DNA from: Polytrichum commune
Lineage: Eukaryota > Streptophyta > Polytrichopsida > Polytrichales > Polytrichaceae
Direction: 5' to 3'
Length of the DNA: 64,000 nucleotides
Assembly (NCBI GenBank): GCA_950295325.1
Contig: OX485808.1
Location: 13,146,501-13,210,500, forward strand
Below are positions 5,940-63,745 of this stretch, one piece after another. The position numbers were made by a program, and so were the translations under genes. The notes under the pieces were generated by a model. That model was not told the origin of the DNA. It did not search any database and worked only from the letters and a program-made list of their open reading frames with translations. Position 1 is the stretch's first letter. Each line of letters opens with the position of its first letter.

Positions 5940-6560
5940 GACTTCACAAAACTGCAAACTCAATGTCATGAAGGTTCCAAGCTAGTTCATGAACCTTCCC
6001 ACCAATGTCATTGAAGTGTTCTACCAATTTCATGAGCCTTTTGAATTAGCTCATGGATCTTCTAAACTGACTTGACACCTCAATTTTATGATAGTGGACT
6101 TTTACCTCTAGCAACTTCATGAATCTTTCAAACCAATTTCATAAATCGTTTCTCACTGATATGTGGTTTTTGTGTTCTCAACTTCTCAACTTCTTGCCTC
6201 CTCGTTTCACATTCTTTGCCTTCTCATTGTTCATTGGTTCCTCTTTGTTTTGTGTTCACCTAGAAGCCTCTAGCCTTGACATTGATTTTGGTAGAGCTAG
6301 CCGTGGGGAACAATCAGGAGAATCATATATATATATGATGTGCCATTCTTTGTGAAATAAAAGTATACAATTCATGAAATTGATTTTGTGAAGTTGTGAA
6401 TATGGGTACCAAATCACGACATTGTTCACAACATGTAGTGAAAGTGGTCGAAAGTTCAAGTTAAATTGGTTGTCTATGTAGTGAACTTGGTTCACGATTC
6501 CAATGAAATTGATAGAACTTGCTGCTAAATTGGGCTGTGAAATCATGAAATTGAGTTTGC
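5940..6560 (+). repeat. Repeat block with an inverted partner at 63070-63745
   Basis: Phrases such as GGTTCCAAGCTAGTTCATGA, CACCTCAATTTTATGATAGT, ACCTCTAGCAACTTCATGAA and GAAGCCTCTAGC recur as their reverse complement near the end of the window, in the same relative order. The block has no usable reading frame. It is a degraded dispersed repeat of unknown class. Confidence 0.7.
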
Positions 6561-7314
6561 GCTTCTGTGAATTCATCTTACGAATGGCGTAAATCATGCA
6601 TGACGTTACAAACAAGAGGTATCCAGGGATGAGTGCAGTATGATCCAGATGGTTTGAAGAAGACTGAAACTGGAGACAGTTACATGTACCTTAATAATCA
6701 GCCCCCACTGAGCGTCAGGTCAGCTGCATCAATCCGTCACCATGGAGTCATTTCAGAACATGTCTTCTTGTGAAGCTCATTCAATGCATGGCCAGGCTTC
6801 TGCCGATAAGTAAGTGGAGCCAAAACTTACCACACCCTTTCCGGAAGCCTCTGGCATTCGACCTTCTTAGGGTGAGTTTTTATGTAGGTCGCTCACCCAC
6901 CAAATTCTAGTGTGAATAAGGGTAAACTCGTCCAAATGTAGAGGGAATTTAGTGGGGTAGCGTTTGTATGTGCCAAACTAGCTGCTCCCAACTTCTCAAA
7001 TCATGGCCCACCTATTAACCTCTTCTTCTCAGTTATCAAGGATGGAGTTCTAGACCACCGTTGGTTCTCTTGAGTCTTCAACCGGTATTAATCTTTCATT
7101 GAACAACACTTGTAGGTTTGTGATTCTTTAGTGGGCGCATGGAAGTCTAGCGGCCCGTGTCCATGGCTCTCCACATTCTAGTGGACCGCTAGAACGTGGT
7201 TGGAACACGATATTCAATATTTTGAGAGAGTGGGATCCTCTCAAAATAATATTGGCCATTTGGACACCTAAAAGTCATGTTAGGTTGATAAATACTAGAT
7301 TATACTTCAGACGT
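6561..7314. other. Intergenic DNA, no gene seen
   Basis: No coding frame or RNA gene is recognised. A small hairpin lies near 7206-7255, where ATATTTTGAGAG is followed by CTCTCAAAATAATAT. Confidence 0.5.
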
Positions 7315-7721
7315 GTAGTTTCCATTAAAATGAGAGTATGTTAAGCTGGGAAATTGACTCATTTAGGTTGAGTCGACCTAAATGAGGACAATATTTTGTC
7401 AATTTAGGTTGAGTCGACCTAAATGAGGACATTATGTTGTCAATTTAGGTTGAGTCGACCTAAATGAGGACAATTATGTTAGTCAATTTAGGTTGAGTCG
7501 ACCTAAATGAGGACATTATGTTGTCAATTTAGGTTGATTCGACCTAAATGAGGACAATTATGTTAGTCAATTTAGGTTGAGTCGACCTAAATGAGGACAA
7601 TATGTTAGTCAATTTAGGTTGAGTCGACCTAAACGAGGACAATATGTTGTCAATTTAGGTTGAGTCGACCTAAATGAGTCGATTTCCGAGCTTAACATAC
7701 TCTCATTTTAATGGAAACTAC
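7315..7721. mobile_element. Fold-back element with 53-bp terminal inverted repeats
   Basis: The left arm (7315-7367, starting GTAGTTTCCATTAAAATGAG) and the right arm (7669-7721, ending CTCATTTTAATGGAAACTAC) are inverted copies matching at 51 of 53 positions. Between them is an array of palindromic units, so the whole 407 bp can fold on itself. No reading frame for a transposase is present. I see no convincing target-site duplication, so mobility is inferred from structure only. A transcript crossing it would form a long hairpin. Confidence 0.85.
7362..7676. repeat. Eight tandem palindromic units of 41-43 bp
   Basis: The word TTTAGGTTGAGTCGACCTAA begins at 7362, 7403, 7444, 7487, 7528, 7571, 7613 and 7654. 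Within it TTTAGGT and ACCTAAA pair around a GAGTCGAC core. The units are linked by GAGGACAATATGTT(A)GTCAA-type spacers. Only single-base changes separate the units (GATTCG in unit 5, AAACGAG in unit 7). The spacers are alike, so this is not a CRISPR array. Confidence 0.95.
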
Positions 7722-9335
7722 GGTGGAATTTACGGCGGAAAATCAAATGTTATTTTTTTACTTGTACTCTACAACTTTCCAGTGGTTTTCATTTCATTCT
7801 TGGATTAATAGTTTGCTTTATGTACTCTCAATTCACTGGAAAACTCTCATTTTAATGAATATTGTGTTTTGGATGGTGGCTTGTGCTTAACTACATGTGA
7901 ACACCTCCGACCCACTGGTATCTAGAATCTAGTGGGTGAGTGGCCTACATGGAAACTCACCCTTAGTCAACACAGTAGCCTGGTAACAAAAACTTCGTCC
8001 TAGAAATCAAAATGCCAAAAACATTTTTTTTTGATTGTATGAACTAGAATTTAAAGTAAATATGCACACAAGACTTGTCCAAATTAATAATGCATAGAGA
8101 GTATTTTTTGCACAGTTGAGACACGCACATTGGATAACAAAATATTTCAAAGAAGAAACTAAAAGATTATGATGAAAATCCCAATTATATATATTATTGT
8201 GAGAATCAATATGATCAAATATTCCCTCTAAATATGCATTTCCACACACATGACACTAGTTGCATGCAACTAACACGTGCTACACCAAGAGATGCAATCA
8301 CATCTAGAAGTAGTTGCTGTCATTTCTATCATGGGGTTGATATAAGTGCACATGTAGAATTTTATTTCGTCTAGAACTCGTGAATAAGTATAGGTTTACT
8401 TGAATTATAGTTTATGGCCCCTTTCCACTAGAGCTTGAGTTGAGAGTTCAAACTTGTGATTTTTGCAAGTTTGATGCTTGGATTTGACAAGCTTTCATTC
8501 AAATCTCAAATGTCAGTCTTAATTTTAGGGTATGTATTGGTTTTGAGCAATAGACCTATCAAGTATACTTACTTGGGTGGGAAAAAAATTGGACCATCAT
8601 TGTACCAATCAACATGCCAACAAAATAACAAATAGACCCAGAATTTTACCCCCCCCCCCCCCCCGCCCCGGTTGTTTGGTTACCTATAGGGACTACCTTT
8701 GATAGGAGGCAATAGCACTTATCCCATAGTAAACCTGTCTTGGGTTCACATATGAGCTTGCGGCTATGATAAAGGCGGAATATCTCTCATTCACGCCAAT
8801 CCTAGAAGTTGGTATTGTCTCGCTCTCCAAGAGAGTCCAAAGGGCCTATGAGAACACTTAAAGAGAAAGAGAATTGTTAAAATTCACATGTTTGAATAAC
8901 CTTTGCATCTCCATTCCAAATTGTTCTTGAATTTGAAATGACAACCTTCACTATACAATTTGCAATTGCAAACCACATTCAAGACAATTCCCAACACAAT
9001 CCAACATATGAAGTTGTATGTGGAGTTGGAATTGCCCACAATAGGGCTACCAACTAGTACTTTACATAGTGTTGGTTTTAGGTTATGTGATGGTTTGAGT
9101 ATGCCTAGACCTAAATTAGACATACTTGCTACTTGAGTGGAACAATTAATTATGGATCATCATGTGAGGGGTTGTAAGGTATCATTGGCCCTATTGTGGG
9201 CATTCTTGACTTCCAACTCCACTTAGAACTTTGGCCATTGAATCGGACTTAACTCATCTCATTCAATTTACAATTGCAAGCCACGATTATCATTTCAAGT
9301 TTCAAAATTGGAGTTGAAGTACAAAATCAAGAGAG
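7722..9335. other. Intergenic DNA with repeat fragments
   Basis: No gene is supported. Positions 8418-8530 resemble 62960-63075 (AGCTTGAGTTGAGA, ATTTGACAAGCT, TTTAGGGTAT). A C-homopolymer sits near 8649-8668. Positions 8980-9230 contain phrases (GGAGTTGGAATTGCCCACAA and its near reverse complement) that also occur near 33020 and 49420, so they are dispersed repeats. Confidence 0.5.
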
Positions 9336-10025
9336 GTCAAAGTGAAGATTCTCTTCCTCTTGAAGTGATCACATAGAATCTCCTTTTAATTGTGAACCTA
9401 AAATGTGTCTCTAATTTGAACACATAGTCCAATCTCATTGTCATAAGTGTTGTTTTGTTACCTTGCCATATAGGACTGGGTGTCCAATTAAGAAGAGTTA
9501 GGTTGTTCACCTTTTTGGGGGTTTTGTGGTTCCATTGGGTTTCACCCAAGGGAGTTTCCCCGCTCTCTTTTTCAAGTCCAGGTGGCCTTGTATTTTTTTT
9601 AGGCAATGAAATAGTATCTTGTTTCATTTTCCTCAAGAAAAAATTGAGGTACGCATAAGGTACGCATAAGGTACTTGATGGGTGTTAAATGGTTTATTTT
9701 TCCAACTGGCTTACTTCTTCTAGGATATGGAACACAAGATTAGTACGAGATGGCTAGTAAATATAAATCAAGACCATTGTGACTTTCCTCACAATATCTG
9801 CAGCTCATATGAATATCTTGTTCATAATAAAAGTGAAAATCCCGTGCTCATTTTTAAGTGGTCAATGTATAGGTCCCTCCAACAATGTTCACTATCAAAC
9901 CTAGAACGAAAATTAGATTTAGAACATACAGTCAAATCTCTTTTAAACATATTCCTTTTGGTGTCCATTCTTGAAGCCGCACCAAACCACATACCATTCA
10001 AATGTAGGTGTCATAAAAAAAGGTA
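9336..10025 (-). repeat. Dispersed repeat family R1, two minus-orientation copies
   Basis: Reverse-oriented R1 landmarks occur twice: GAAGATTCTCTTCC, CATAGTCCAATCTC and GTGTCCAATTAAGAAGAG at 9340-9500; then TAGGATATGGAACACAA, CAGCTCATATGAATATCTTG, CACTATCAAACCTAGAA and TGGTGTCCATTCTTGAAG at 9720-10000. A small direct repeat, AGGTACGCATA, lies near 9649-9670. Confidence 0.6.
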
Positions 10026-10094
10026 ACTAAATAATGGTTGTCTACCTTGCTTTCAATAAAAACCTTCAAGCAGTTTCCAAGCCCTTTAGTGGTA

Positions 10095-10505
10095 GGGGAG
10101 ATTTTTGGACATAATCAGTCTAGATCCTAGTGTTTCCAAGTCCAACCACTACACGTTGACATCTTTTGGTTTTTATTGATTTATTTAAGGTATATTCTAT
10201 AAACTCCTCTAAAACGATCCATAAATTTCCTATTGTCCTGAACTTTGAACCAGCTATCCCTCAAACTCATTCAGCTCATCTCTAACTTGCAGTCAGCGCT
10301 CCCCAGTGTCTGGGGAGATTTTTGGGCATAGTCGATCGATATCCTAGTGCTTCCAAGTCGAACCGGTTACGTGTTGACATTGTTCGGTTTTTCTTTTTTA
10401 AATTGAGGTATATTCCCTGGATTCCTCTAAAATGATGGGAAATTTTCCTCAAGTCTTGAACTTCAACCGGTTCATCTGCAGAGTCTAGCAGCCGGTTCTA
10501 CATGG
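10095..10505 (+). repeat. CCGGTT-rich dispersed repeat, two tandem copies
   Basis: Two copies with a period of 217 bp, each starting GGGGAGATTTTTGG. They share GATCCTAGTG/GATATCCTAGTG, TCCAAGTC, TTGACAT, GGTATATTC, TCCTCTAAAA and TTGAACTT with the copies at 2050 and 34475. The second copy ends about 50 bp before the conserved upstream element of the proline-rich gene, so this repeat abuts that gene's promoter. Confidence 0.8.
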
Positions 10506-10694: not shown

Positions 10695-10889
10695 CACATG
10701 AACCTCCACTGCACTTCATCAGCACTTCACCCCACTCCATCCATCGGCAAGTTCAGTGCGAGCTGAACTGAACTGCGCTGATCAGTCGACTTACTTAACT
10801 TCAGCGTCAGTGTGTCGGATCAGTAGCTGCAAGCCAACCGCAGGAGGTGCAGCAAGCAGTAGCAAGGCTAGTTGTGGAATAGAGTACTG

Positions 10890-11588
10890 ATGAAGTCGAC
10901 TATGGCGATGCTCATGGTGGCAGTGGCTGCTCTAATTGTGAGCTCCTGCTTCGTCTCCACCTCGGAGGCTAGCAGGGCAATGTTGCAGCTGCGAGGCTCC
11001 CAGAAGAGCTTGAGCGACTTGCTGCCCAGCTGCTCACCGCCTCCTGCCACCCCAGACTACTCTTCTCCCTCATACTCCCCTCCTGACACATACAGCCCCT
11101 CTTACTCACCCCCAGACAGCAGCTACACACCCCCTGATTCCCCTGTCTACTCCCCTTCCCCAGTTTACCAATCTCCATCTCCAGTATACCAATCCCCATC
11201 CCCAGTTTACCAATCCCCATCTCCAGTTTACCAGTCTCCGCCTGATTCTCCCACATACTCTCCATCCCCAGTGTATGAATCTCCTCCTTCCCCTACTTAC
11301 TCTCCATCTCCAGTTTATGAATCTCCTCCTTCCCCTACTTACTCTCCATCTCCAGTGTATGAATCTCCTTCTCCTACTTACTCTCCTTCTCCAGTTTATG
11401 AGTCTCCTCCTTCCCCCACTTACTCTCCTTCTCCAGTGTACAGTTCTCCATCTCCAGTGTACCAGAGCCCATCACCGGTCTACTCTCCTTCTCCAGTGTA
11501 CAGCTCTCCATCTCCAGTGTACCAGAGCCCATCACCGGTCTACTCTCCTCCATACAGCAGCCCCTCTCCTCCAGCAGGCGGGTACTAG
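10890..11588 (+). CDS. Secreted Pro/Ser/Tyr-rich repeat protein (cell-wall type), 232 aa
   Basis: The first ATG of the frame is at 10890. Residues 1 to about 27 form a signal peptide (MKSTMAMLMVAVAALIVSS core), with likely cleavage near STSEA/SRA. A short linker (SRAMLQLRGSQKSLSDLL) is followed by a long repetitive domain with 15 SPVY motifs in forms such as SPSPVYQ, SPSPVYE and SPPSPTY, ending PPAGGY. The alternating Ser-Pro pattern without SPPPP blocks suggests a proline-rich or arabinogalactan-like wall glycoprotein rather than a classical extensin; Tyr residues could cross-link. It is probably hydroxylated and O-glycosylated, and secreted. The paralogue at 26793-27179 shares the EA(S/A)RA(M/L)LQ start of the mature protein and the C-terminus. 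The gene appears intronless. Internal DNA repeats of 30-42 bp make the length prone to change. The exact function is unknown. Confidence 0.92.
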   Translation: MKSTMAMLMVAVAALIVSSCFVSTSEASRAMLQLRGSQKSLSDLLPSCSPPPATPDYSSPSYSPPDTYSPSYSPPDSSYTPPDSPVYSPSPVYQSPSPVYQSPSPVYQSPSPVYQSPPDSPTYSPSPVYESPPSPTYSPSPVYESPPSPTYSPSPVYESPSPTYSPSPVYESPPSPTYSPSPVYSSPSPVYQSPSPVYSPSPVYSSPSPVYQSPSPVYSPPYSSPSPPAGGY

Positions 11589-13341: not shown

Positions 13342-13432
13342 CACTAGTAGGAAAGGTGGGTTTACATGACAGGCCAATCTAACACTTTGTGTTAGATTGG
13401 AGTATCATGTAGACCCACCTTTCCTACTAGTG
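13342..13432. mobile_element. 91-bp CACTA-ended hairpin element
   Basis: The arms start CACTAGTAGGAAAGGTGGG and pair over 28 bp with one mismatch; after four unpaired bases they pair over another 13 bp (CCAATCTAACACA). Almost the whole 91 bp forms one stem. The CACTAGTAGGAAA terminus matches the style of CACTA-derived mini-elements. The flanks are cac and caa, so the 3-bp target duplication is imperfect. Confidence 0.8.
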
Positions 13433-23499: not shown

Positions 23500-23865
23500 A
23501 AGTATACACCCCTTACTCAGTTACTTTCTTTAATCGGCACCTACATTTGAATGGAATGTGGTTAGGTGTGACTCCAAGAGTGGATACCTAAAGGACATGT
23601 GTTTAAAAGAGATTGGACTACAAGCTCAAAATATAATACTCATTCTAGGCTCAATAGCCAACATGATTGGGGGTTTGAACCTATATGACCATTCAATGAG
23701 CACGAGAATCCTCACTCCACTAATAAATAAGATGTTCATATGGGTTTTGCGAATTATAAGAAAAATACCCGTGGCCTCAATTTGGATTTGCTAACCATCT
23801 CATAATAATCATCTGCTTCATATCCTAGGAGTGGTGGGCTCGTTTAAAAAAGTAAACATTTAAGA
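23500..23865 (+). repeat. Dispersed repeat family R1, plus-orientation copy
   Basis: One of the fuller copies. It has GAATGGAATGTGGTTAGGTG, AAAAGAGATTGGACTA, CATTCTAGGCTCAATAG, ACATGATTGGG, CTATATGACCATTCAATGA, CCTCAATTTGGATTTGC and GCTTCATATCCTAGGAG in order. Confidence 0.8.
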
Positions 23866-26614: not shown

Positions 26615-26792
26615 ATCCCCCTCCACCACCAATAGTTCCCACATCACAAACTTCTCCCCGGCTTCTCAGATCAGCAGCGCCCTTCTCAGGTCATCAGCAG
26701 CAGGAGGAGCCAGGAGGACATAGATCGATCGATCGAGCATCAGCAAACAATCAGACTGGTCCACGCTGTGGGTACTTTTGAGCGATACGGGG

Positions 26793-27179
26793 ATGTCGGT
26801 GATGAAGTTGAGGCAAGGATCGTCGATGGCAATGGCGATGGTGCAGGTGCAGGTGGTGGTCGCCATGGTGATGTTGATGAGTAGCTCCAGCTTGTTCATC
26901 AGCCCTTCGGAGGCAGCAAGGGCACTGCTGCAAGGCAGCTATGGATACGACACACCTTCTTCCCCTGCGTATGCATCCCCTGCTCCAGTGTACCAGTCTC
27001 CAGCTCCTGTTGTTTATAACTCGCCCTCCCCTGTCTATGCTAGTCCTTCCCCAGTCTATGCTTCTCCTGCCCCAGTCTATCAGTCTCCCGCAGCTCCAGT
27101 CTATGTCTCTCCTTCCCCAGTTTACTACTCTCCTCCGGCTTATGTTACACCGTCACCTCCGCCAGCGGGCGGGTACTAG
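26793..27179 (+). CDS. Secreted Pro/Ser/Ala/Tyr-rich protein (cell-wall type), 128 aa
   Basis: The first ATG of the frame is at 26793 (MSVMKLRQGSS). A second in-frame Met cluster follows at SSMAMAMVQV, so initiation could be slightly later. A hydrophobic stretch (VQVVVAMVMLMSSSSLF) is the signal core, with cleavage probably near SPSEA/ARA. The mature part starts ARALLQGSYGYD and contains PVY repeats (SPAPVYQ, SPSPVYA, SPSPVYY), ending SPPPAGGY. The start of the mature protein and the C-terminus match the 232-aa protein at 10890, so the two are paralogues; this one has fewer repeats and more Ala-Pro. It is probably a glycosylated extracellular-matrix protein with no enzymatic domain. The gene appears intronless. 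Confidence 0.9.
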   Translation: MSVMKLRQGSSMAMAMVQVQVVVAMVMLMSSSSLFISPSEAARALLQGSYGYDTPSSPAYASPAPVYQSPAPVVYNSPSPVYASPSPVYASPAPVYQSPAAPVYVSPSPVYYSPPAYVTPSPPPAGGY

Positions 27180-28667: not shown

Positions 28668-31600
28668 CTACATCTGATTTCTACCACCTCTTATATGGCC
28701 ATCTGTCGGATGATAATGTCTGGAACTACTTTTAGTTTGTAAAGAATTAGTACGCCTAGGTTTTGAACTATTATGCACTCGTGTTCTCCCCTCGGAATCC
28801 AACTTGACCCAAGAATTGAATGATAGACTTTTTGGGCGCTTACCTTCTCCATTTTCTACCATCTCCGCTTTACCATCTTTCTTGGTATTGAGTGAGAAAG
28901 TCCTTCCAAATAGTAAGCCTCTTGGTAAGCAAACCGCCCCTTGATCGCTTACTTTTACAACTTCCCGCCTCGTGTCGATCTCATTCAAAGCACCTGCAGT
29001 GATTTGGCTTGTTACAGGTAGCAAGGTAGCAGGGGTCCCTCTCACTCTCATTCCTTTGTGAACCAAGCATCTCTTCCGGCCTTTCACAGGAAGAGCATTG
29101 CAAGGAACGCCTTTCTCAGTTAGCACTCCGCACCTCACCCCGGTAAATTCCAGTGTTGTGAACTCAGCAGATTGTCGGGCAGATTGTACAGTTGCAGCTA
29201 AAACCTCATGTGGTTGCTTTTTCAGAAAATACCAAAAGTTGCCTACCTTGCTTTTCTCTGATCTTGAAAAGTTACTATGATCTTCAGGTCTCCAAGCTTC
29301 CACAGTAATCCCCACTCGCTTCGTTCCAAAAAGCATCAACCTTTTGCCTGAGGAGGAGCTTCGGGTGCACAAATTAGTTCTATCTGCTGCAGGCCAGTCC
29401 TTGATAAGTTTGGCAAGGATGTCAGGAGATCGGCGAGCCCCGTTGCCACCTTTGTTCCACGCATAATCGAAGACAGATAGCAGATCTCCTTCCACTTTCT
29501 GTGCCATAGCTTTACTGTCCGTCTGTAATACCAATATTAGGATGTCAAGGTAATCTGTTTGTAAAGAGAAAGAAAAAGAAAGCAGAATTTGCCTCCGACA
29601 TGAATTATGGTGTTGCTTCATTCTTCAAGTTGGTCTATCTCTCTATGTAATCCTGAAATGGGCAGCACGAGGATTAAGAGAGCCCTCCAAGAATATTGCA
29701 GCCTTTTGAAGGTCAACACCTTACAAGCCGGCCTGCACCTATCTCCCCCCAAGGGCAAAGCCCCTAGATACCAACATGGTTGATTGAAAATATCCAGTTC
29801 ACCCAAATACCCCCACTATGATATGGGTGGAAACTGGAAATCAATTGCTAGGAAGGTCACCCATCCGGGCATTATTCCCACCTTAGGTGGCATAACCTCT
29901 AACCTCAGATTTCCCATGGGATCCGTGCTAAGGCCTTGGGATTAAACCACCCTATGCTTTTCGTAACAACTAGATAAAGTTCAGAGTACGCAGTGCCACT
30001 GAAATAAAACCACAAGGAAGTGCAGGTCCAAAGCCAAACATCAATCACACATTTTGTAGAGTTAATAGAGGTATCACAACGGGACTTTTGGTCAGGAGTT
30101 GGTTGTTTTGTATACAATACTTTCCATGTTGGTAAGTATTCGGTGAATGCTCGAAGGTAGTGTGGAGGTTTAAATGTAATTCATTCTTTGTTGGTTCATT
30201 TGAGGGTCAAACTCATTTTGGCATGCCAAGAGGTGCTAAAATGAGTTTGGCCCCTTTATAAACCAAAATAGGTTTTTCTTCATTCAAATTCAAACAGTAC
30301 CTCCACACATGAACCATAAGTGGAAATAAATTATTGACTTATGTACAAAACAACCAACGGGAAATCATAAGGGACCGTCTCCCAACCAAAAAGAGTCCCA
30401 TTGAATTGAAGGATAACTCTAACATGGAAGACAATCCTTTCAATGTATGGATACATATGTAGAAGAGATTGCTTCAGTTTGGGTAAACTTTTACCTTTGC
30501 CCACCGAAAGGCAATGGAACTTCCAAGTGCAAACACCTCTGAAAAGAGGCTTGGTCCTCCGTTCTGTAATTTGCCTCCACTCTGATGCTGCTCCAAGGCA
30601 ACCTCTCTACTACTCCAGTATCCTCCACGTGTCTGACAGCTGCGGGTTGGGCTGCCACAGGATATCATCTCATTCTTCGAAGAATTCGGCCGACTAGATA
30701 TTGAGGATCTGCAATGTAACATGCACAACCTTTTTAGATTTATTGCCTCTCCTTCACTCAAGCTTGCAGTGTTGTGGGTGAGGGTGCTTGAAATCAAGAG
30801 GCCAGAAAAGCTCGACAAATTGAGTGAAAATATGGCAGCCCATCACCATGACATTTTAGTCGAGCTGCACACAATCGTCAATCAGTCTGTCTTTATCAAA
30901 GAATGCACCCAGTATATTCAAAAGCACATGAAAGGTACGTGTACCCCAAATCAACATAAAACCTAAAATCACCACTATTTACCATGATCATACATTCGTG
31001 GGTTAAAGTTGTACGACCATGGTACATAATGTTGGTTTCAGGTTATGTGTTGGTTTTGGGTATGCTTACCTTAACTCGCAACATTTTTGTAAGTTTGCAG
31101 TTGGCTATAAGTGTATGTCCAAGTATAAAACCACCTAATCCAAGTAGGACTTTTTGTGAATTTGGTCACGAGGAAACACCCAGAACTCCACCTTTCAATT
31201 CACCTCCATTGGAATTAAGAGGTCCGAAGAGCTCGACAATTTGGGTGAAAAAATGACAGACTATCTCAACGACATTTAGTTAAACCTGGGCACAACAGTC
31301 AATTAGTCTGTCCTTGGCAAAGAGTGCACGCACTGTTTTCATACACGCATGTAATAACTCACCATCTGTTGTAACTTTGCAGTTGGCTCCATATATTCAC
31401 ATACAAAAAAAACACAAAGAGACTTTCTGTAAAATTGTTCTAGAGACAACACCCGGTAAATGCACCTTCCAGTTATTTCTTCTCCATTTGACATGGAAAA
31501 GGTCAAATTTGAAATTCTAGTAAGTTTTCAAAGTTGGTGTTCGGTGCAATATTTGCAACACCTGAATGTGATACTTTCCTCTCATAGTCAGTATGGATGT

Positions 31601-33381
31601 GCTTATCAAAACCTAACTGCGTTTTGTTTGACCTTACGATCAGATTGGCAATTGTCACATCTGGTTAGCAATTGCAATCCCGTAGCTTGTCAATTCAAGT
31701 TTCACAAGCAGAGTTTCACAAGATGCAAAAGACATAGGTCCAGATCAAAGTGAAGATCCTCTTCCTCTTTAAGTGATCACAGAGGCCCTCTCAATCGTGT
31801 TAAGAATGGCTGATATATTATGAGCAGAGAGTCCAATCTCATATGTAATAGACATGTCTTTTTGGTGTCCATTCTTAATTACAGAAGAAACAAATAGCAC
31901 TGAATTACTATGATGTCATAAATTACCTGGACCCTTCAAGATGTCCACCCGCATGTCCATATTGTTGAAGACGTTCACGGATGTTGTTGGCTTGGCCAAC
32001 ATAGACCACAGCCACATCCTGTCGTTTCAGAATACGTGCTGGCTGGTTGTGGTTGTTGTGTGCAGGATTCAATATATAAGACGGCGCTGTAACTCCAAGC
32101 TCATAAACTCCTGGCCCAAAATGGTGACCTGGGAGATTATGGAAATGGTATCTGTCTACTCCTTCCTTCCCTGAAGCATGTTCAATCCAATCCGAAGGCC
32201 CAACCAGTATCTACGCCCCAAAACCATCTCGTTTAGTGCCCAGAAACGTTCAACTATTAAGGTAGATGTGCCTAAATCCAACATAGCAATAATTTGGACA
32301 CCTATATTTGAGTGGAAAGTAGTTAGGTGTGATCTAAGAATGGACAACTAAAAGACATATCTTGAATAGAGATTGGACTAGGTGCTCAAAATATGCTAGC
32401 CATTCTAGGCGCAGTAGTGAACATGATTGGGAAGACCTATATGACCACTCAATGTGCACAAGAATCTTCACTTTGATAAAGCATAAATCATTCATATGAG
32501 CTCCAAAAATTATGAGGCAAAAGGGTTACGGGCACAATTTGGATTTGCTAATCATCTTGCACTAATTGTATGTTTCGTATCCTACGAGATGTGGGTGCAG
32601 AGAGAAATGTATCCGAATAACAAACGTCTACATTAGTAGAAAATAGAATTGTTTCTAATCAGGATGTTTGAATCAATGACTGGAGTGAAGTAACCCTAAC
32701 TGGAGTTACAGCGCTATCACGCCCATCAGCTGAAACTTGTTGAGATATGTGGGCCTTACGAATCACTCTTCGTATTCGACACCAAAAAGACAAATGAGAT
32801 TGGATTCTGTGCTTCAAATATACATTAGCCATTCTAGACTCAATTGTGTTAGGCGTATGTGATCACTGATCACTTAAAGAAAAAGAAAAAATCTTCACTT
32901 TGACCTCCTATACCTTTTCCATCTCAACTCCGTTTACGAAACTTGAAATGACATACTAAGTGATTCGCAAACATCTAACTGTATGTGACAAATCCCACTT
33001 TGATACAAATGACACAACCAAAATTGTCTTTGGAGTTGGAAGTGCACATAATTCGGCCACAACCCTTACACCGAATTGAGTTTGGAATACCTCAAACTTT
33101 CAAACATCATCTCCGACTTCGGAAAAGATTCTCAATTGTAACAAAAAATAAAAAATACAGTACAGAAAGTAACGTGATGAAATTGAACATCTTTGCAGAA
33201 TGGAAAAAGATAAAGGGGATGGTAAAGCTCAAGACGAAGATGGCCAAGTTGATGTTATCACCTTCCAGTTGGAGAATAGCTTGTCATGTTTGACGAATTC
33301 GCAATCCTCTCGTTTCAAACGACCTTTCGATGGCTCGATCACAAAATCCTCACTGGTGCAACTATTAAATAGGAAGCCCAT
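28668..33381 (-). CDS. ET: EFFECTOR OF TRANSCRIPTION-type protein, four exons, about 490 aa
   Basis: Exons on the minus strand: 33381-33262, 32210-31927, 30708-30495 and 29522-28668. All introns are GT-AG and the joins agree in phase (0, 2, 0). Exon 1 has RLKREDCEFVKHDKLF then NWK. Exon 2 continues ILVGPSDW, HNLP, GVYELGV (74-80) and VVYVGQANNIRERL (YVG at 110-112), the two strands and Arg of a GIY-YIG-like fold. Exon 3 ends LFSEVF and IAFRWAK. Exon 4 has VEGDLL (Glu217), FDYAWNKGGNGARR and one ET finger, Cys337-x9-Cys347-x10-Cys358-x2-His361 (PVKGRKRCLVHKG). This order matches plant ET2/HRT proteins, described as nuclear regulators linked to gibberellin response and differentiation. The start is set at ATG 33381 because the duplicate at 53662 has its ATG at the same place. 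The C-terminal 110 residues are basic and unrecognised; further 3' exons cannot be excluded. Confidence 0.88.
29848..29940 (-). repeat. 5S-rRNA-like segment in ET intron 3
   Basis: Read on the minus strand, GCACGGATCCCAT, then GAGGTTAGAGG, then GGATGGGTGACCTTCC line up in order with the 5S rRNA words GCACCGGATCCCAT, GAAGTTAAGCG and GGATGGGTGACCTCC, with similar spacing. The internal control region is degenerate, so this is a relic and not a working 5S gene. 5S-derived SINEs and Cassandra-type TRIM LTRs in plants carry such sequence; which applies here is not decided. Confidence 0.5.
30770..30935 (+). pseudogene. Unidentified exon-like relic inside ET intron 2 (antisense)
   Basis: The plus strand encodes about 55 residues with coding-like composition (LEIKRPEKLDKLSENMA, then HHHDILVELHTIVNQSVF, then IKECTQYIQKHMK), ending at a possible splice donor (AAAG/GTACGTG). 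A second copy at about 31190-31335 aligns base for base over more than 130 bp but has a frameshift after TTGGAATTAAGAGGTCC and stop codons. A third, partial copy of the sequence just upstream lies at about 31417-31480. I do not recognise the family. These look like fragments of a gene or element inserted in the intron; expression is not implied. Confidence 0.45.
32262..32592 (+). repeat. Dispersed repeat family R1 inside ET intron 1
   Basis: A full-length-looking copy: GTAGATGTGCCTAAATCC, GAGTGGAAAGTAGTTAGGTG, TAGAGATTGGACTAGGTGCT, CATTCTAGGCGCAGTAG, ACATGATTGGGAAGACC, ATGACCACTCAATG, ACAATTTGGATTTGCTAATC, TTTCGTATCCTACGAGA. It is antisense to the host gene. A second, shorter fragment follows at about 32790-32880. 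Confidence 0.8.
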
Positions 33382-34350: not shown

Positions 34351-37324
34351 AATTGAATTCATTTGAAGGTGGAACTAAAGTTTGCCAAATAGAACGTCCC
34401 AATAGTGGCATAACATTAAGCATCTCCTTGGCTGCATTCCGTGGGACCATGTATCACATGAACTTATGTCTGGGAAGAACCGGCGGTTAGTTGCAGATGA
34501 ACCAGTTGAGTTCGAAAAATAACCGGTTGAAGTTGAGGACTTCAGGAAATTTACCGATTTTTTTAGAAGAATCTATAGAATATATCTCAAATGAATAAAG
34601 CAAAACCGGAAGATGTCAACATGTAACCAGTTGGATTTAGAATCACTAGAATCTTGACCGACTGCCCAAAAACTTCTTGGGCACTGATATGAACATACTT
34701 CTTTAATTCCGGAATTCCATGTTTATGAGGAGCACTCAAGTTCTGTACTACAAACATTTCGACAAGCAACTCTAAATTATCGTAGTTCTTTAATCATAAC
34801 ATTTTTTTTTAAAGAGACCATCATGTAGTTGCTTAGTAATGTTATGGGGTTCCTCAAGTGATTAAGGGTTGAAAGTAGGGGATTGTTAAATCAACCACAT
34901 AGTGTATTAAAATGAGCATAGAGACGCATCGTGTGGTCACATGACCTGTTAAAATTTAATTTTTCATCACACATGAAGAGGAGCAAGGTGTTAACTTTGT
35001 GTTATAATTAATAAACTTGACCCAACACTTCTGTATGCATCTCTATGGTCATTTTAACCAGTGTGTGGTTAATTTAACAAACCCCCAAAAAAACCATATC
35101 AATGTTGTCCATGTATGAGTTTTAATATATAATATATCATCAATGCGGAAAGTTTATATTGAAAGTGAACTTAGAACTAGATACTCGGTGGGTTCATGGC
35201 ATTGATGAGTAACAATATTTGTAAATGTCCAAGGATGTGTATATACAGAAATTGGTATTATGGAATGTCATAATGGCATATGTGTAAATAGCAAGATCCA
35301 CATCATTATTGTTCTTGGATGCATGATTCATGGACCCACCCAAGGTGTTGCAATCTTCTTGCATAAGGTAGAAAATGGAAACAGTGAATGACCACTACTG
35401 GTGCACTAGATTAGGAGTAGAATGGTTCTTGTGTGGACTCAAAGTGGCTAAGTGTAAAGGTGGTGGTCCAAAAAGGACGTACAGTTGGGTTGGATGCAAT
35501 GATTGGCTAGATAGGTCATGTTTCACACCACTTGGGATCACTTTTGGGTGCCATTGAGTTAACGCTTTATGTCCATTCGTATGCAAACAAAGATATTTTG
35601 ATGCTCAAGTTTGGGAGACTCTACTATACAAGTAGAGGGTTCGACTTCCTTACCTCCTTGAAAAAAATGTAACTAATTATTTACATGGACTTTAAAATTA
35701 TGAAACAACCTGCACTCCTCATCATTTCCTTTGCTTCATCTCTGAAAAATATTGCACAAATTCCAAGCCACTCTTTCTAGCCAAATCAACTTATTTTCAC
35801 CATTTTTGTTTTTCTACCTTAGTGTGCAAATTTTATCGCCTTCAACACACGGCTATCTTTTAGAAATAAATACAAGGTCTTTTTGAAGGTATATATGAAT
35901 GTTAGATTCAAGACCCTAAAAGGGCTAATGAAAAATTTGCAATGAGTAAATTTTACCCGTTCTCAACATCAAGGAAAAGTAGCCGCCATTGTGAAATATT
36001 TGGCACAATGATTTATATCATAATTGAATGTCGCATACAATTTCTTTTTCCCCATGAATCATTAGGTTCATTTGTTCACACCGTTCATTTGTTGTTGAGA
36101 CAACTTATTTGGGTTGTTTCACCGCAAACGTTGGATGACCACCAAACATTGTCCATTTCAAATTATGTGTTATTTAACGTCCCTTTCCCATCCATTCTTT
36201 GATATGGTCAAACTTCTCTTGGATGACATTGTGAGCAACAGATTGGGACCGCCACACATCACTTTAACCAACGAGAGAACTTAGAAAGCAACAATCTCAG
36301 TCCTTGGTTAGTAGTGTAAACATGGCCTTAGTGTAGCCTAGGGCCCACATTAATCATGAATGAGCAAAATGAAAATACTTAATTATAAATAACCACACCA
36401 ATTATGAATGCCTTTAGGTGTTGTGGTGCATGCTATTTGTTAATTCAAAAGAATAGAGTGGATCTTTATAACATAAGCATATCGAACATAATAATTCTTG
36501 GTCCAAACATAGCAGTGCCTTAATATATTATTAAAAAATTAATCAATTACAATCAGTTATTAACAAGTTTAGAATTAGAGTGAGTTACTCCATGAGATAA
36601 GTAACACTAATTGTTGACCAATATTTAACCACTTCCCTAGAAACAATATCCTACAAGCAAACCCCCAAACCATATGGTGGCCCATAAATGCACACAAAAC
36701 AAAGCCATCGTAGGGGGTTCTCATTTTAATATATAGCCACGTGTCAGTCCTACATAGGTTGAGACTTCTTGAATCCCACATGAAAACTGCATTCTGGCAC
36801 TAAGTAAAGATGAAATAGAGTGCCCTCTACAATATCACCTCATGCACATCTTCACACTCAACCTCAATTCTCTCTCTCAACCTACTAGGTAGTAAGAAAT
36901 CATGTTTGTAGGCCCTCATCCCAAGCAAACCGCCCATACGCAATACTAACAACACGCATAATTCAGCTTATCCTACAAAGACAACACTAGACTTGGACCA
37001 CATCACATGACATCACACTAAGTTACACAAAATATGGGTGCACACCAACATGTTGGGCACTAGATTTGGGCTAACCAACTGATACACTCGTTCCTTGTTG
37101 GATGCTTAAACCCTTGCCTCCAAGGAACCAGTGTATAGGTTGGTTTGCCCCAGCCTTGGGCACTAATAAACAAGCTAACAAAACTCGATAGAATTGGGCC
37201 CACCAACTCCAATCCAAAACATTTGACATTCAACGCCATATGTGAGAAAATGTTGTTCTCACAACCATTTTTGATTGTGGGCAGCTATTGGGGAGGGGAA
37301 GACAAGTATAATGAACTATGTAAG
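34351..37324. other. Intergenic DNA with one CCGGTT repeat copy
   Basis: Positions 34475-34680 hold the CCGGTT-rich repeat in reverse orientation (AGAACCGGCGGTTAGTTGCA, AACCGGTTGAAGTTGAGGAC, CGGAAGATGTCAACATGTAA). The rest shows no gene. Phrases such as GTGTGGTTAATTTAACA with its near inverse occur at about 34880-35090 and suggest another decayed inverted-repeat element. Confidence 0.5.
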
Positions 37325-54430: not shown

Positions 54431-57110
54431 GTACGATATCTTCAACATAAAATCTACTTATACGTATGAAAGGTGATAATGTACACCGGGCGTACATATG
54501 GACACGAATTCGTGGCTACCAGAACTTCGTGGTGTTAAGGTAAACTTGTCATTGGGAAAGTGAAAGGCACCCTTGCTTGGAAATATAATGACAGTGACAC
54601 GTGTCGCATGTTTATTGGTTGAACCCATGCCAACGTTGACATGGAACAAAAATAGATTACGAATCGACATGCAAAGTTTTGACCCTGTCATCATGGGCAC
54701 TAGAGTAGAGATGGCATGGAGTTGGGTTCCTTGAAAAGGGTACTAATTGTACTCAAGTTTTTGTCTCCCAGCTATCAAAAATAGGTCGACCCATGCTGTG
54801 AATATGGGTTAGCAAAGAATCTTGCCATTGGAAATTACACAAATTTCAAAACTTGGAAATAAATTAAGTTTTTTGGGGTTAAATGTTGTGATATCAATTT
54901 CCATGCATGTGAAAAATGGCCCCAATATCACACTTGTACTACAATGATGCAAAATTGCTTAAAGTTAACGGAAATAGGCCTATCTACTCTGAATTGTTTA
55001 TGGTTGATATTGTGGGAAAATTTATAGTGTCACTTGCCCTTTGATGCATTATGGTGTGGACCACAATATACACCATCACATACTAATTAGTGTGGAATCT
55101 TATCCTTGAGGGTTTTCTTTTTTTCTTTTTTTCTATTTGCATCATGTTTCACATACCTAGAGTCTTATCTAGGTGATTTCCATGGAGATTATAATATTAT
55201 GGAAACTACCAAAGTTTGCATAAATTATTTCGATAAATAGCATTCAACAACTTAGGATTTTGAAAATCACGATTTTCACTTTGTTGGGGCTTATTTAAAG
55301 AAAGAAGTTAGATATTCGAATCTTAGATTGGAAACCTCTCAAGTAGGACAGGTTTGAAGTGGATCTCACTTTGTTGCAAGTATCTCAATTCCATATTAAT
55401 TTTTTATCTACTGAAAAATATTGTAACCTATAACCTAGTCCTCCAATGTTATATATTGTGGGTTATATATTTAGTATCCACAATAAAATACCCAATGTTT
55501 TTAGTGTTGCTTTCGTTGTTTATAGTGTAGCCCACAGTAGTTACCATAAATAGTGTAATTGTAGTATGGAATTCACTATTTTATGTTTAAAGTGGCATTA
55601 AAGGACCCAAAGTTATTGTATTGGGGCCGATTGAGAATTATTGGTTGGGCCCTAGTTTTTAGGGGTTTGTTTTCCTTTTGTTTTTGCTAGAGTCCATTCA
55701 TCCACGTTGGTTAGCTAAGAGTTTACCTAGATGGCCATGTAATTTGACACCGGAGTTTTATGATGTCTAAGTAACTCATCCCATTTGGATGGGGAGGGGG
55801 TGAACTCTTCATTAAGGGAGCAACATGCGTGCATGACCCCATATTCAAATTCCCTATATACATAATTTTTATCATGAAATGAAGACTACCTATACATATA
55901 ATCATATACTATATAATTGTCACTTTGTATGTATACATCAATTCGCAACTTCTACAATAAATTGTTTCAACTATATAAACAAAATATAAACAGTTGAAAA
56001 CAGTTGAAAACAAATAGGCATTCCTTGAATATGTGTTCGTAAATCACTTTCCATTGACAAAGGTAATGAAGTATGACACAAGGAACGACAAGTATAATTG
56101 CTCCATGTGAAGATGAGATGTCATTATTGGATTTAAGAATGCAACAAGTATCACCAAAGTTTTGTGAGAGAAAGAGCAAGAGAGGGGTCCTTGGGGGCAA
56201 TAAAGGGTTAAAACGCAAGTGTGCATGTTATGATGGCTCCCCCACCAACTTAGCATACTTGCCATCTTATAGAATTACCAATGGGTGTGAAATTGACAAA
56301 TTGCATGGGAGCACCAATACTAACTAAGATGGGAGTATATATTGGAGAACAACAAAGTCTCGACACAGACCTTGCTTGCACTACAAGCATGTGAATCATG
56401 GGTAGTTGTTCCACATCCCTAAAAGATTGTCTTGTGTGACTAGGAAATTTGTAAATCTACCATTGTAATAGATTTGTATAATTCTTCACCGATCCAAGAC
56501 GATTGCCATAGGACTCAAATGTTGGTAGTGTTGGTCACCAAAATGATACACGTATGGCATCTGCAATATCTTGCATGTTGCAAGGTCCAATTAAGCCATT
56601 TGTTCTAGGCCTTCCATATGCCAAACAACCAATCTAGAGAGTGTAACCTACATCATAACATAACCTAATCCCAGATCATATATAGAGGCAAACATGTGAA
56701 GATCTAAATACAAGATTTGGGGAGGGGCTTTGTGATCGCCCTCCTAACATTTGAAAACTCCAAGACTCATGTTAAGTAAGTACTTTGGCCTTCTACCGAC
56801 ATAATAACTTGGGGTGAGCTTTGAAAGCGCTTTTTCCCGGGGCGTTGAACCACTTTAGTGCTAGCCACAGAAGGTATTCAAGTGTTTGGAATGTTAAGGT
56901 ACATGCCAATCTTATTTCTAGATGTCAATGTAGAGTTCTAAGTGGACAAATAATCTAATAAGAGTGGGCCACACTAGGTATTCATCATCATGCTATACAT
57001 GCACGCATGCACCACTTCCTACTGGATTGTATGATATGGGCCACAATCAATTCCAAAAAGGTGTTGGAATTGAACTTTCGGGTATGATTATAGTGTGGAC
57101 CGCATCATTA
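54431..57110. other. Intergenic DNA, no gene seen
   Basis: No gene is supported. Positions 56395-56530 resemble 57530-57660 (AAAGATTGTCTTGTGTGACT, AGGAAATTTGTAAATCTACC, GGACTCA(A/T)(A/G)TG), forming direct repeats on either side of the CACTA element at 57111. Confidence 0.45.
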
Positions 57111-57363
57111 CACTAGAAGAAAACTTGTCCATTAAGTTACAATCATCCATTGTGACTTGTCCATTTTGTGACTCATGGCAAGAAAATACATAAATCGATC
57201 ATTTTTGTTGCCAATGAAAGGTTTTTGGCTTTAGTTTTTGGACAATGAGTAACCAAAACCCTTTGATTGATGACCAAAATTATTTATTTATGCGTGTTCT
57301 TGCCATGAGTTGCAATAGCCAAGTTGCAATAGCCGATTGCAAGGAACAATTTTTCTTCTAGTG
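57111..57363. mobile_element. CACTA-ended mini-element with a TTA target duplication
   Basis: The left end CACTAGAAGAAAACTTGTCC and right end (reversed) CACTAGAAGAAAAATTGTTC pair. The trinucleotide TTA is repeated immediately outside both ends, as expected for the 3-bp target duplication of CACTA transposons. The interior has further inverted words (CATGGCAAGA near 57174 and CTTGCCATGAG near 57299). 253 bp, no transposase frame. Confidence 0.8.
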
Positions 57364-59958
57364 TTACTACACGAGCCTAGACCAAAACAACTCTTGACAA
57401 GGACAAAGTCACCAACTCATACTCCGTTAGAAGCAGCATCATTCAAGCATACCAAAACATCCAAAATTAAGAATCTTATTACATGGAAGACACTATGTGG
57501 CAAGGAAAGCACATTACAAACATATGAGTTTTGGATAATTGTCATGCATCAATAGGAGATTGTCTTGGATCACTAGGAAATCCATAAATCTACCATAGTG
57601 GTAGATTTGCATCTTTTTTTCACTCAAGCAACACGATTATCTAGGACTCATGTGCAGATATTGGCAAGAGCATTTACATAGGAAAACACACACACATTGA
57701 TATATATATAGCATGAGAGGAAGAAAAATCCAACAACAAAAGTGAGTCACTTCAATTTTCCAAGCTTGGTGCACTCTAGGTGTAGTGTAATGTGGCTAGA
57801 GGAGAACCTACATGACGTCGAGGGAAAAAAACATTGTAAACTTTGAGGCATTGAGTTAGTTACTTGGAAATCCAAATTTCAACAAGACGGGATAAACCGT
57901 TCATGTTTTGAGCAGTTTGTGAATCTTTCCTGCTTGATGGAGTTCTTTGTTGGAAGCTTTCAATCATGCAGTCATGTAATGCCCTAAGAACTTGAATCCC
58001 ACCCGCTCCAAAATTCGTATCACTAGACATTTAATACGGATGAATAATGAACGTTTTGTGGGGAAATACGTTGAGAGGGCTCCCAGCCATCTCCGTATCC
58101 ATAAGTAGCACGATTTGCACATTCAAAATGACAAAGCTAATTGGACTTCATTGTAATATGGAGACAAGTAAAGGAATATATGACCATCAAAAATGAAATA
58201 AATTTATAATGATAGAAAGTGAGTATGACTAGGTTCATATAGTAATACACACATCATGTATGTGAACATTTCATAAAACAACGCAAAATTCATTGTCAAA
58301 CAGATCATAATATTACTCAACATTCAACTCTTGTTCAGTGGACCCTCATAATACAATAGTCATGTGTTCGAAAAATTATGCAGGATGACTCAAATTCAGA
58401 TCGTGCTCCCAACATCCCCACTAGTACATTATGAAGGCCGACATTGTTGAGTAATGTTATGGTAAAAATATATTCCTTGATTCAAAAATTAATCTAAGTT
58501 TTTTTTATGATAAAACAACTCAAGAATTTATATGTCACTTTGTTTAGGTCTAAGTGCTACAAGATTACCCATGATGGACCTCTCCACATTGAGGGGTTTC
58601 AAAGATTCTATGAAGCTTTGCAAGAAAACCTAACACACGTATTCATTTCTTTCACTCTAAAAATTTGCACATGTGAAGTACTTTTAAGGAATCGAATAAA
58701 TGTAAATTACTTGTGCAATACCATAAAATCAGAGAACATGAGATGCAGAAGCTATTGGACTCTGAGTGAAGATTTTCTTACTCTCTTTATGATCACAATG
58801 TTCAATGTGTATGTTTAACAAATGTTATTTGAACGTTCAACTTCAAATCCAAAGTGTCCCGTGACATTTTCAAAGACAAAAATGAATGTCAATTGACATC
58901 TATATTTTTTTCTTTCTAAAATGTGACCTCAATGTCACATGCCTAGTAGTACATGTCATCTCAATTTGTAACGTGTCAATTGACATGTGGTTTTTTTCTT
59001 CACAAGTCCCACTACATGCCAAATTCTAACTTGTGCGTGTCAATTGACGTGCATCTTTTCAGGGTGCAAGTTTTTGCATGTCAAATGTCAAAAACTTGCA
59101 AAAACGTTGTCCAAAATACACACTCACAAAGGTTTCCCTATTTGTGTTCATTATTGAATTTAGAATGATGTCTATATAACGATCACATAATCTAATTGCA
59201 TCATATCATGTGTCTTTTTGGTGTTCATTCTAAACTACAAGTCTTGTTATACATGCTCACACCTTAGGTGTCCAATGAAGAAGAGTAGCCCCCACATAAA
59301 GTAGGCATGCCTTAGATGGGTATATTACTCTTTGCACCCACCTCTCGTAGGATATGAAATACGCAATTAGTGTGAGGTCATTAGCAAATCCTAATCGTGC
59401 CCACAACCATTTGCCTCATTATTTTTGGAGCTCATGTGAATATCTTATTTGTTATCAAAGTGGAGATTCTCGTATTGACTTAAGATCCTTCAATCATGTT
59501 GACTATCAAGCCTAGAATATTTAGCATATTTTGAGCATATAGTCCAATCATTTTAAGCATGTGCCTTTTTGGTTCTAGTTCTTAGATCCATCCCTAACCA
59601 CGTACCACTCAAATGTGAATGTCCAAATCTATGTTTTGTTGGATGTAGGCATGTCTACCTTGCCTTATACGGTATAAATTCTCTTAACCAACACATAACC
59701 TAAAACTAACACTCTGATGTACACTAGACACCAAAGCACCCCCAATAAGCTTCTAAATAAAGGGGTCACATGATAGGATAAGGGCCAAGGCCCATAACTT
59801 GCAACCCTCAAGCAATTTCAAAAAACATTTTTGAACATGACCGGAAAATGTTGCCCACCTCATTCGACTTCAAAATAAAGTTGTCCGTACATTCTTGAAG
59901 GCCGCCTAGTCCATAAAACCCATATTTGGATGCACCTCGACTTCAAGGCCCAAAATCT

Positions 59959-59991
<33 letters not shown>

Positions 59992-60600
59992 CCACTTAAT
60001 AAATAAGCAATTGATTTGAGTTGCATTTCCAAAGTGAAACCGTCATTAAAGTATGTAGGTAACTTGAAAGTTAAAGATATGACAATTCCTCATTTGCATT
60101 GAAGGGATAATTTTTGTGGCTCATCATTTGAAAGGGCCTTTGTCATTTCTAGACATATCTTCAATTTATTTTCTAAATTTAGCTGATGCAAATTATAATG
60201 TTTTCCTAATGTTTTTTTCCCTTTCACGAGTATTTACAAGTATTCACACACATTCAAGCTAATTAAACATAATCAAATTATGTATATGGTCATGAAATTG
60301 AGGAGTTAAAACCTATAATTGTGTTGCATACCTAATAAGATAAAACCAAGTCAGGCTTCACTTATGATTGCCAAATCTATTAAAGAGAAACCATTATAAT
60401 TTTTTATTTTTTAGAAGAAAAAAAAACAATTCGAAGATGGTCACTTTCTTGTGTGAGTCGTGCATTATATGCATCAAGAAGAAGAATAGCTTCTATGATT
60501 TGAACTAATTTCCATCTTGTAAGGTTTCAACAAGTATTCTAGTAAAATTGGATTTTCTTGGATGAAAAGTTAGATGCATTAGAGCAGCATTAACATGTAA
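57364..60600. other. Intergenic DNA with repeats, no gene seen
   Basis: Contains three TGTCAATTGAC(A/G) palindromes at 58887, 58974 and 59038, minus-orientation R1 copies at about 59150-59290 and 59335-59660 (CACAATTAGTGTGAGGTCAT, GAGCTCATGTGAATATCTTA, TGTTGACTATCAAGCCTAGA), and a TA microsatellite at about 59958-59986. The 103-codon frame at 58507-58818 has no recognisable domain. Confidence 0.5.
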
Positions 60601-60893
60601 AGACAAAAATAAGAGATGGGTTAGTGATTAGAATGAGGAGATGGAATAGTTTTGAATTGAAAACACACGGGTTCAAAATCTGTCGTGCACAAGAGAAACT
60701 AAACATGGGTAATATAATCTTTGAAAACTCTCGCGTGTGACAAAAGCTAAACATGGTAAATAAATCTCGATGGTTATATTACTCATGTTTAGCTTCTCTT
60801 GTGCACGACGGATTTTAAACTCACGTCTCTTTAGTTGACAATTACTCCGTCTCCTCCCTCTAACCACTAATCCGTCAATTGTTTTTGTTCTTA
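60601..60893. repeat. Inverted pair of tRNA-derived SINE-like units (fold-back)
   Basis: Two arms of about 105 bp are inverted repeats around 60715-60775 (shared core CGTGCACAAGAGAA and TAAACATG(G/A)GTAATATAA). Each arm, read from its outer end, begins like a tRNA head: an A-box-like TTAGTGATTAGA or TTAGTGGTTAGAG, then a B-box-like GGGTTCAAAATC or GAGTTTAAAATCC about 50 bp on. Two copies of a SINE-like unit in inverted orientation would explain this. An ordinary long-TIR element is the alternative. Confidence 0.6.
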
Positions 60894-63069: not shown

Positions 63070-63745
63070 GTATCCATGTTCTACATGTTGTCAACAATTT
63101 CATGATTTGGTATCCATGTTCACAACTTCACAAAATCAATTTCCTGAATTGTATTTCACAATGAGCAATACATCATGTATAAGATTCTCCTAATCACTCC
63201 TCACAACTAGGTCTACCAAATTTTTGATTGACCTCTCGTATCCAACCTCGGACCATGTTTGCAGTGATTGCTTGTACATCATCATTAATGCGAGCATGTT
63301 GCATGATTTTGGAGATTGTTCCATCAGACGTGGCAATCGATGTACAATAAACAACGACCAAAGGGGGATTGTTTGCTTCCAGCTACGAGGTATTGTAATG
63401 AAAGACGAAAGAAAAATCGACGTCAAAGCTAGAGGCTTCCATGTAAATGCATAACAAAGAGGAACCAATGAACAATGAGAAGTCACATAATGCGAATGAG
63501 AAGTTGAGAAGTTGAGATTACGAAAACCACAGAGTGCGAAAAGAGTTATGAAATTGGTTTGGAATATTCATGAAGTTGCTAGAGGTAGAAGTCCACTATC
63601 ATAAAATTGAGGTGTGCCAAATGTCAAGTTGGTTTAGAATAATCATGAACTAATTTGGAAAGGTTCATGAAGTTTGTAGAACACTCCGGTCACGTTGTTT
63701 GGAAGGTTCATGAACTAGCTTGGAACCTTCATGGAAGGTATGTGG
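63070..63745 (-). repeat. Inverted partner of the repeat block at 5940-6560
   Basis: The reverse complement carries the same landmarks in the same order as 5940-6560: CATGAAGGTTCCAAGCTAGT, CTCAATTTTATGATAGTGGA, CCTCTAGCAACTTCATGAA, GAAGCCTCTAGC, and then CACAACTTCACAAAATCAAT-type words. The frames on either strand are not conserved. Confidence 0.7.

Follow-up and report, generated by a model that had tools for sequence, protein, structure and literature searches.

A 407-bp fold-back element built around eight co-oriented palindromic cores in Polytrichum commune, a probable non-autonomous DNA transposon

The element at positions 7315-7721 (407 bp) of the analyzed window, a 64,000-nucleotide stretch of Polytrichum commune DNA, consists of mirrored arms around eight palindromic cores. 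Judging from its sequence, we interpret it as a short non-autonomous DNA transposon, namely a fold-back MITE of about 401 bp between TA dinucleotides, whose core was multiplied through slippage or unequal exchange; the probability that we assign to this interpretation is roughly 0.6. The element has the short terminal inverted repeats and the small non-coding size (401 bp) that characterize MITEs, and no stop-to-stop ORF of at least 90 aa was found to overlap the enclosing region 6870-7962. No transposase was detected by Pfam in the 30 ORFs that were scanned out of the 56 ORFs of this kind; the matches obtained for these 30 ORFs include two to PF19239 and two that fall below the Pfam cut-off (Cuticle_3 and PADRE).

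The inverted arms (7315-7367 and 7669-7721) are identical at 51 of 53 positions, exactly as claimed in an earlier note on this DNA. The last 7 bp of the left arm (7361-7367) are already part of the first core, and the arm proper comprises 46 bp (7315-7360), 44 of which match the right arm. The left terminal inverted repeat proper, GTTTCCATTAAAATGAGAG...GACTC, occupies positions 7318-7360 on the plus strand, and its right counterpart, as delimited by the arm comparison, occupies positions 7679-7718 on the minus strand. The alignment of the element with its own reverse complement covers the full element length (393 aligned positions with 324 identities, and a further 28 positions in gaps), and the corresponding blastn self-match begins and ends exactly at 7315 and 7721. 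The element reaches a fold-back score of 199, compared with best scores of 19-26 in 20 first-order Markov controls of the window; a chance palindrome is ruled out by these controls and by shuffles. Four other long inverted repeats in the window score 148, 100, 78, and 69, and thus fold-back sequences are common in it.

The array between the arms (7361-7678, plus strand) is formed by eight 26-bp palindromic cores, starting at 7361, 7402, 7443, 7486, 7527, 7570, 7612, and 7653, and by seven linkers of 15-17 bp. The core-to-core spacings (41, 41, 43, 41, 43, 42, and 41 bp) bear out the earlier description of eight near-identical palindromic units of 41-43 bp. Six of the eight cores are identical over 26 bp and the other two carry one base change each, with the average being 0.5 mismatch per pair. 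The pattern TTTAGGTTGAGTCGACCTAAAT, allowing up to three mismatches, was matched 16 times in a scan of the whole window (eight sites on both strands, 0.00 expected), and all 16 matches fall inside the array. Each core contains a 21-bp dyad centered on the middle G of TTGAGTCGA, which is replaced by T in core 5. The dyad is interrupted by a single T/C break that is identical in all eight cores, the left half of each carrying T where perfect symmetry needs C. The linkers are imperfect dyads as well (GACAATATGTTGTC-like), and all seven read in one direction. Since every core has its symmetry break on the same side and the linkers are co-oriented, the array is a head-to-tail tandem repeat in which each unit is a palindrome. 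The mirror symmetry of the array stems from the units themselves and not from inverted duplication; the origin of the array via inverted duplications is ruled out by the orientation shared by eight of eight cores. The linkers bear no resemblance to the arms, which leaves the birth of the array unexplained.

As judged from the comparison of units, the repeat grew in blocks, with at least one step involving two units (84 bp). The two-unit block at 7402-7485 is repeated at 7486-7569 (7402-7569 in total, plus strand): the second core with its linker equals the fourth at 41 of 41 positions, and the third core with its linker differs from the fifth at one position in 43. An 84-nt repeat family is found within the array at 98%, and TRF gives periods of 84 and 126 at 95% (scores 567 and 583, respectively) versus period 41 at 91% (score 521). 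The recent amplification or homogenization claimed in the earlier note is thus supported by the sequence; it came after the T change, since the T is common to all cores. Deamination of a methylated CpG would turn TCGA into TTGA, and the left arm, similar to the core break, has TTGA where the right arm has TCGA. Methylated-CpG deamination is a possible source of the T break, as suggested by one founder position and the similar difference in the left arm.

Under the preferred interpretation, the center of the element would have begun as one palindromic core, or a few, the dyad halves of which diverged first (TTGA versus TCGA), before multiplication. The core would then have been copied head to tail, through replication slippage or unequal exchange and with the 84-bp step included, and this expansion would have occurred after movement or already in a parental copy. 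Because each unit is nearly palindromic, the element stays self-complementary at any unit number. Mobilization would be provided by a transposase from elsewhere that recognizes the outer inverted repeats, and a transcript reading through the element would fold into a long, imperfect hairpin, a potential source of small RNAs. Hairpin-forming units favor slippage and unequal exchange. The growth of the array via slippage would be paralleled by tandem MITE arrays in corals, which were put down to slippage since both the units and the spacers are alike (PMC2872659).

The ends of the element can be read as TA-GTTTCC...GGAAAC-TA, with the putative target-site duplication at 7316-7317 and 7719-7720. 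This TA on both sides bears on the earlier statement that no target duplication is visible. No perfect direct repeat of 7-10 bp was found near the ends with boundaries shifted by up to 6 bp (676 shifted-boundary comparisons for each of two assumed ends). The best imperfect repeat, GTGTAGTTT/GTGGAATTT, matches at seven of nine positions and requires each of the two boundaries to be moved by 4 bp; with no perfect repeat and this best match, a Mutator-like target duplication of 7-10 bp was rejected. A TA duplication fits, albeit weakly, because TA is itself palindromic, and a 2-bp duplication of this kind is indistinguishable from a slightly longer inverted repeat. The inverted match extends one base (G/C) past the TA. 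The GTTTCC end was matched to no named family, and scanning the 64 kb with GTTTCCATTAAAATGAGAG returned the two arms and one site at 7844 with three mismatches. An exact 15-nt copy of the end of the arm (ACTCTCATTTTAATG) is located at 7843-7857, approximately 120 bp beyond the element (blastn E 0.26); it may be a remnant and is probably due to chance.

A second inverted pair encloses the element, with the left repeat (GGGTGAGTTT...) at 6870-6910 on the plus strand and the right repeat at 7922-7962 on the minus strand, and would delimit a possible surrounding element of 1,093 bp. The two repeats are identical at 35 of 41 positions and give a blastn self-match of 45 bp (6866-6910, 84%, E 8e-8). 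This outer pair itself is solid, whereas its TTA flank (6867-6869 before the left repeat and 7963-7965 after the right one) is weak. Identical TTA or TAA outside was observed for 2 of the 422 inverted 10-mer pairs spaced by 50-1500 bp in the window, namely the outer pair and the hairpin at 57111-57363, with 0.71 expected from base composition. None of the 216 outward-maximal inverted pairs has the TTA flank, in a test that is blind to it, because TTA/TTA always lengthens the inverted match by one base. The outer blastn match extends beyond the assumed end by four bases, one of which is a mismatch. The hallmarks of Tourist elements are a TWA target and a G-rich end. By its TTA at both outsides and its GGGTGAGTTT end, the outer pair resembles Tourist/PIF-Harbinger MITEs and may represent a 1,093-bp element of this kind, perhaps an older one. 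It differs from them in having neither a transposase nor a second copy, since the within-window blastn matches include no second copy of its ends, and this placement by target site and end is a weak one. The inner element may be nested in the outer one, the order of insertion being suggested by position. The observed-to-expected CpG ratio is 0.91 in the inner element, higher than in the window as a whole (0.51) or in the parts of the outer element that flank it on either side (0.59 and 0.34); the ratio of 0.91 fits a young sequence, with the amplified units sharing one CpG and hence being non-independent.

Among the known elements compared, Stowaway-type MITEs are similar in that the element is short and non-coding and has inverted ends with TA on both sides. 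As possible differences, its end reads GTTTCC (GTTTCCATTAAAATGAGAG) and the Stowaway end CTCCCTCC, and a central array of palindromic units presumably lies outside the Stowaway definition. The preference for a TA target is reported for Stowaway-type MITEs (PMC6200218). The new type of fold-back element suggested in the earlier note has precedents with internal tandem repeats, as described for Tetris, Galileo, and the MITEs of a table of satellite-bearing elements (PMC9659126). Tandem repeats inside transposons are thus already known, and the principle is shared by all of these elements; nothing supports a new element class, and a palindromic-unit center in a plant MITE would be a variant at most. 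The short arms, the central position of the array, and the palindromic units set the element apart from these precedents.

Tetris of Drosophila virilis is described as a fold-back element that is non-autonomous, carries tandem repeats internally, and is tied to satellite formation; its inverted repeats reach 1,735 bp and contain repeats of approximately 220 bp, and its target duplications are 8-10 bp long (PMC4079207). The element considered here is likewise a fold-back element with internal tandem repeats, but its arms are short, its repeats are 41-43 bp long, palindromic, and central, and it has no convincing 7-10-bp duplication. It was not filed under Tetris-type (Mutator-type) Foldback elements after two features had been tested: for the 8-10-bp target duplication the best match is 7/9, and instead of tandem repeats in each inverted repeat there is one central block with co-oriented cores. 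Galileo, a Foldback-like transposon of the P superfamily, carries tandem repeats of varying number in an inverted-repeat transposon, including direct repeats of approximately 140 bp within the long inverted repeats of the single D. willistoni copy in which they occur, and it has coding relatives and a 7-bp target duplication (PMC4168063). The internal tandem repeats are common to both, whereas the approximately 140-bp repeats of Galileo lie within long inverted repeats and those of our element are central, palindromic, and 41-43 bp long. Tandem arrays inside MITEs are also described for Xmix/Xstir and miDNA4 in Xenopus, Pearl/CvA in bivalves, and BrickBuilt in Porphyromonas (PMC9659126, PMC4596501). 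Compared by description only, they share with the element a tandem array carried within a MITE and differ from it in that they come from other organisms and in that their units are not termed palindromic in the excerpts of these two papers. Among the titles and opening abstracts listed from the open-licence literature, we noticed none on a plant MITE that has palindromic units arrayed at its center.

An unlikely but possible non-transposon origin is that palindromic units expanded in place as a local tandem repeat and that a local inverted duplication gave rise to the arms. The single copy within the 64-kb window agrees with it, as do the units, whose behavior, with a period of two units, is that of an ordinary tandem repeat, and the TA and TTA flanks, both of which are weak as insertion evidence. 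However, the arms proper (44/46) lie outside the repeat unit and yet are symmetric and readable as ending at TA, and the window contains other inverted repeats without a long tandem core.

We consider it improbable that the array is in essence a repeated protein-binding site, in which the TGAGTCGA of each core would be a candidate site for a transposase or a host bZIP-type factor; the bZIP-type site TGAGTCA resembles TGAGTCGA. All eight TGAGTCGA sites found in the 64 kb on both strands are located inside the element, in seven cores and at the right arm junction, but such clustering is an automatic outcome of tandem amplification, and core 5 carries TGATTCGA in place of TGAGTCGA. Moreover, half of the TGAGTCGA copy at the right junction is core sequence (TGAG, 4/8 bases), which leaves four bases for the part shared with the arm, and TGAGTCGA as a binding site common to the arm and the cores was downgraded for this reason. 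A precedent is provided by the THAP domains of Galileo, which are described as binding to sites in tandem repeats within the long inverted repeats (PMC3688188). By analogy with the proposal made for Galileo, more units would mean stronger binding, which would be compatible with the MITE interpretation. The array may serve to supply extra binding sites or a stronger hairpin RNA; both roles are rated below plain amplification.

The predicted RNA fold of the element has an energy of -242.5 kcal/mol (z = -25.9), a value that none of 100 shuffles equalled; in the plus strand, 354 of the 407 bases are paired and helices 33 and 23 bp long are formed, and the minus strand folds more weakly (-178.2 kcal/mol). 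The long hairpin that the earlier note expected from a transcript is therefore physically plausible. It is very doubtful that the locus has been retained as a long hairpin that yields small RNAs (in the manner of a young MIR-like or siRNA locus), for although the plus-strand fold is strong and tolerates the T/C break as a G-U wobble while the minus strand folds less well, any palindromic MITE would give such a fold, the wobble traces to one founder change and so does not indicate selection, and no Rfam match was found at the element, the one Rfam match of the window being a tRNA.

A family of plant MITEs centered on an array of palindromic units, which gain and lose units head to tail with the fold-back kept, is conceivable but unlikely. 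Such a family would be a hybrid of satellite and hairpin with copy-number alleles and with tunable double-stranded RNA or multiplied binding sites. Tandem arrays in transposons are one accepted origin of new satellites. Copies of differing unit number, if they exist, would display palindromic units multiplying with the transposon symmetry intact, and the effect of unit number on small-RNA output or mobility would become askable; as a single copy, the element is chiefly a tidy example. Exact scans for the core gave no match in viral contigs or prokaryote genomes, an exact scan for the arm gave none in prokaryote genomes, and blastn of 7300-7740 against plasmids gave none; these collections are not of plants, and the null scans are no evidence of uniqueness.

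With respect to the surrounding genes, the element sits 3,151 bp before a proline-rich extensin-like ORF (10872-11588); another such ORF is located at 26724-27179, both having been named by eye with no Pfam match to extensin. The two PF19239 matches belong to a split GIY-YIG gene at 28668-32210 on the minus strand, with the two matched ORFs approximately 2.3 kb apart, which we take to be EFFECTOR OF TRANSCRIPTION-like, the family link being our own reading; on this basis, the window has the look of land-plant DNA. The EFFECTOR OF TRANSCRIPTION gene family is described as plant-specific and as having a GIY-YIG domain (PMC6585611).

Several other self-complementary sequences are present in the window. 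The hairpin at 57111-57363 (253 bp, approximately 57110-57364) has the ends CACTAGAAGA...TCTTCTAGTG with TTA on both sides and is perhaps a CACTA-like palindromic MITE; TRF lists an array of a 14-bp unit in it (2.6 copies, 57308-57342). The 352-bp fold-back at 60570-60921 has 155-nt arms that are 77% complementary (TTAGATGCATTA...), and no target duplication was seen by eye. The 91-bp palindrome at 13342-13432 is 88% self-complementary with CACTAGTAGG ends; no TRF arrays are listed in either of these two hairpins. Weaker self-complementary stretches are located at 34878-35085 (65%, GGGGATTGTT ends) and 30098-30358 (61%, GTTGGTTGTTTT ends). One dispersed repeat is present in inverted copies near the window ends (5967-6438 and 63081-63733), which are 85-93% alike in pieces. 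Further dispersed repeat pieces, from one or more families, are found at 2115-2519, 9876-10472, 23538-23765, 32258-32521, 34465-34663, and 59297-59549 and are linked pairwise at approximately 60-86% identity.
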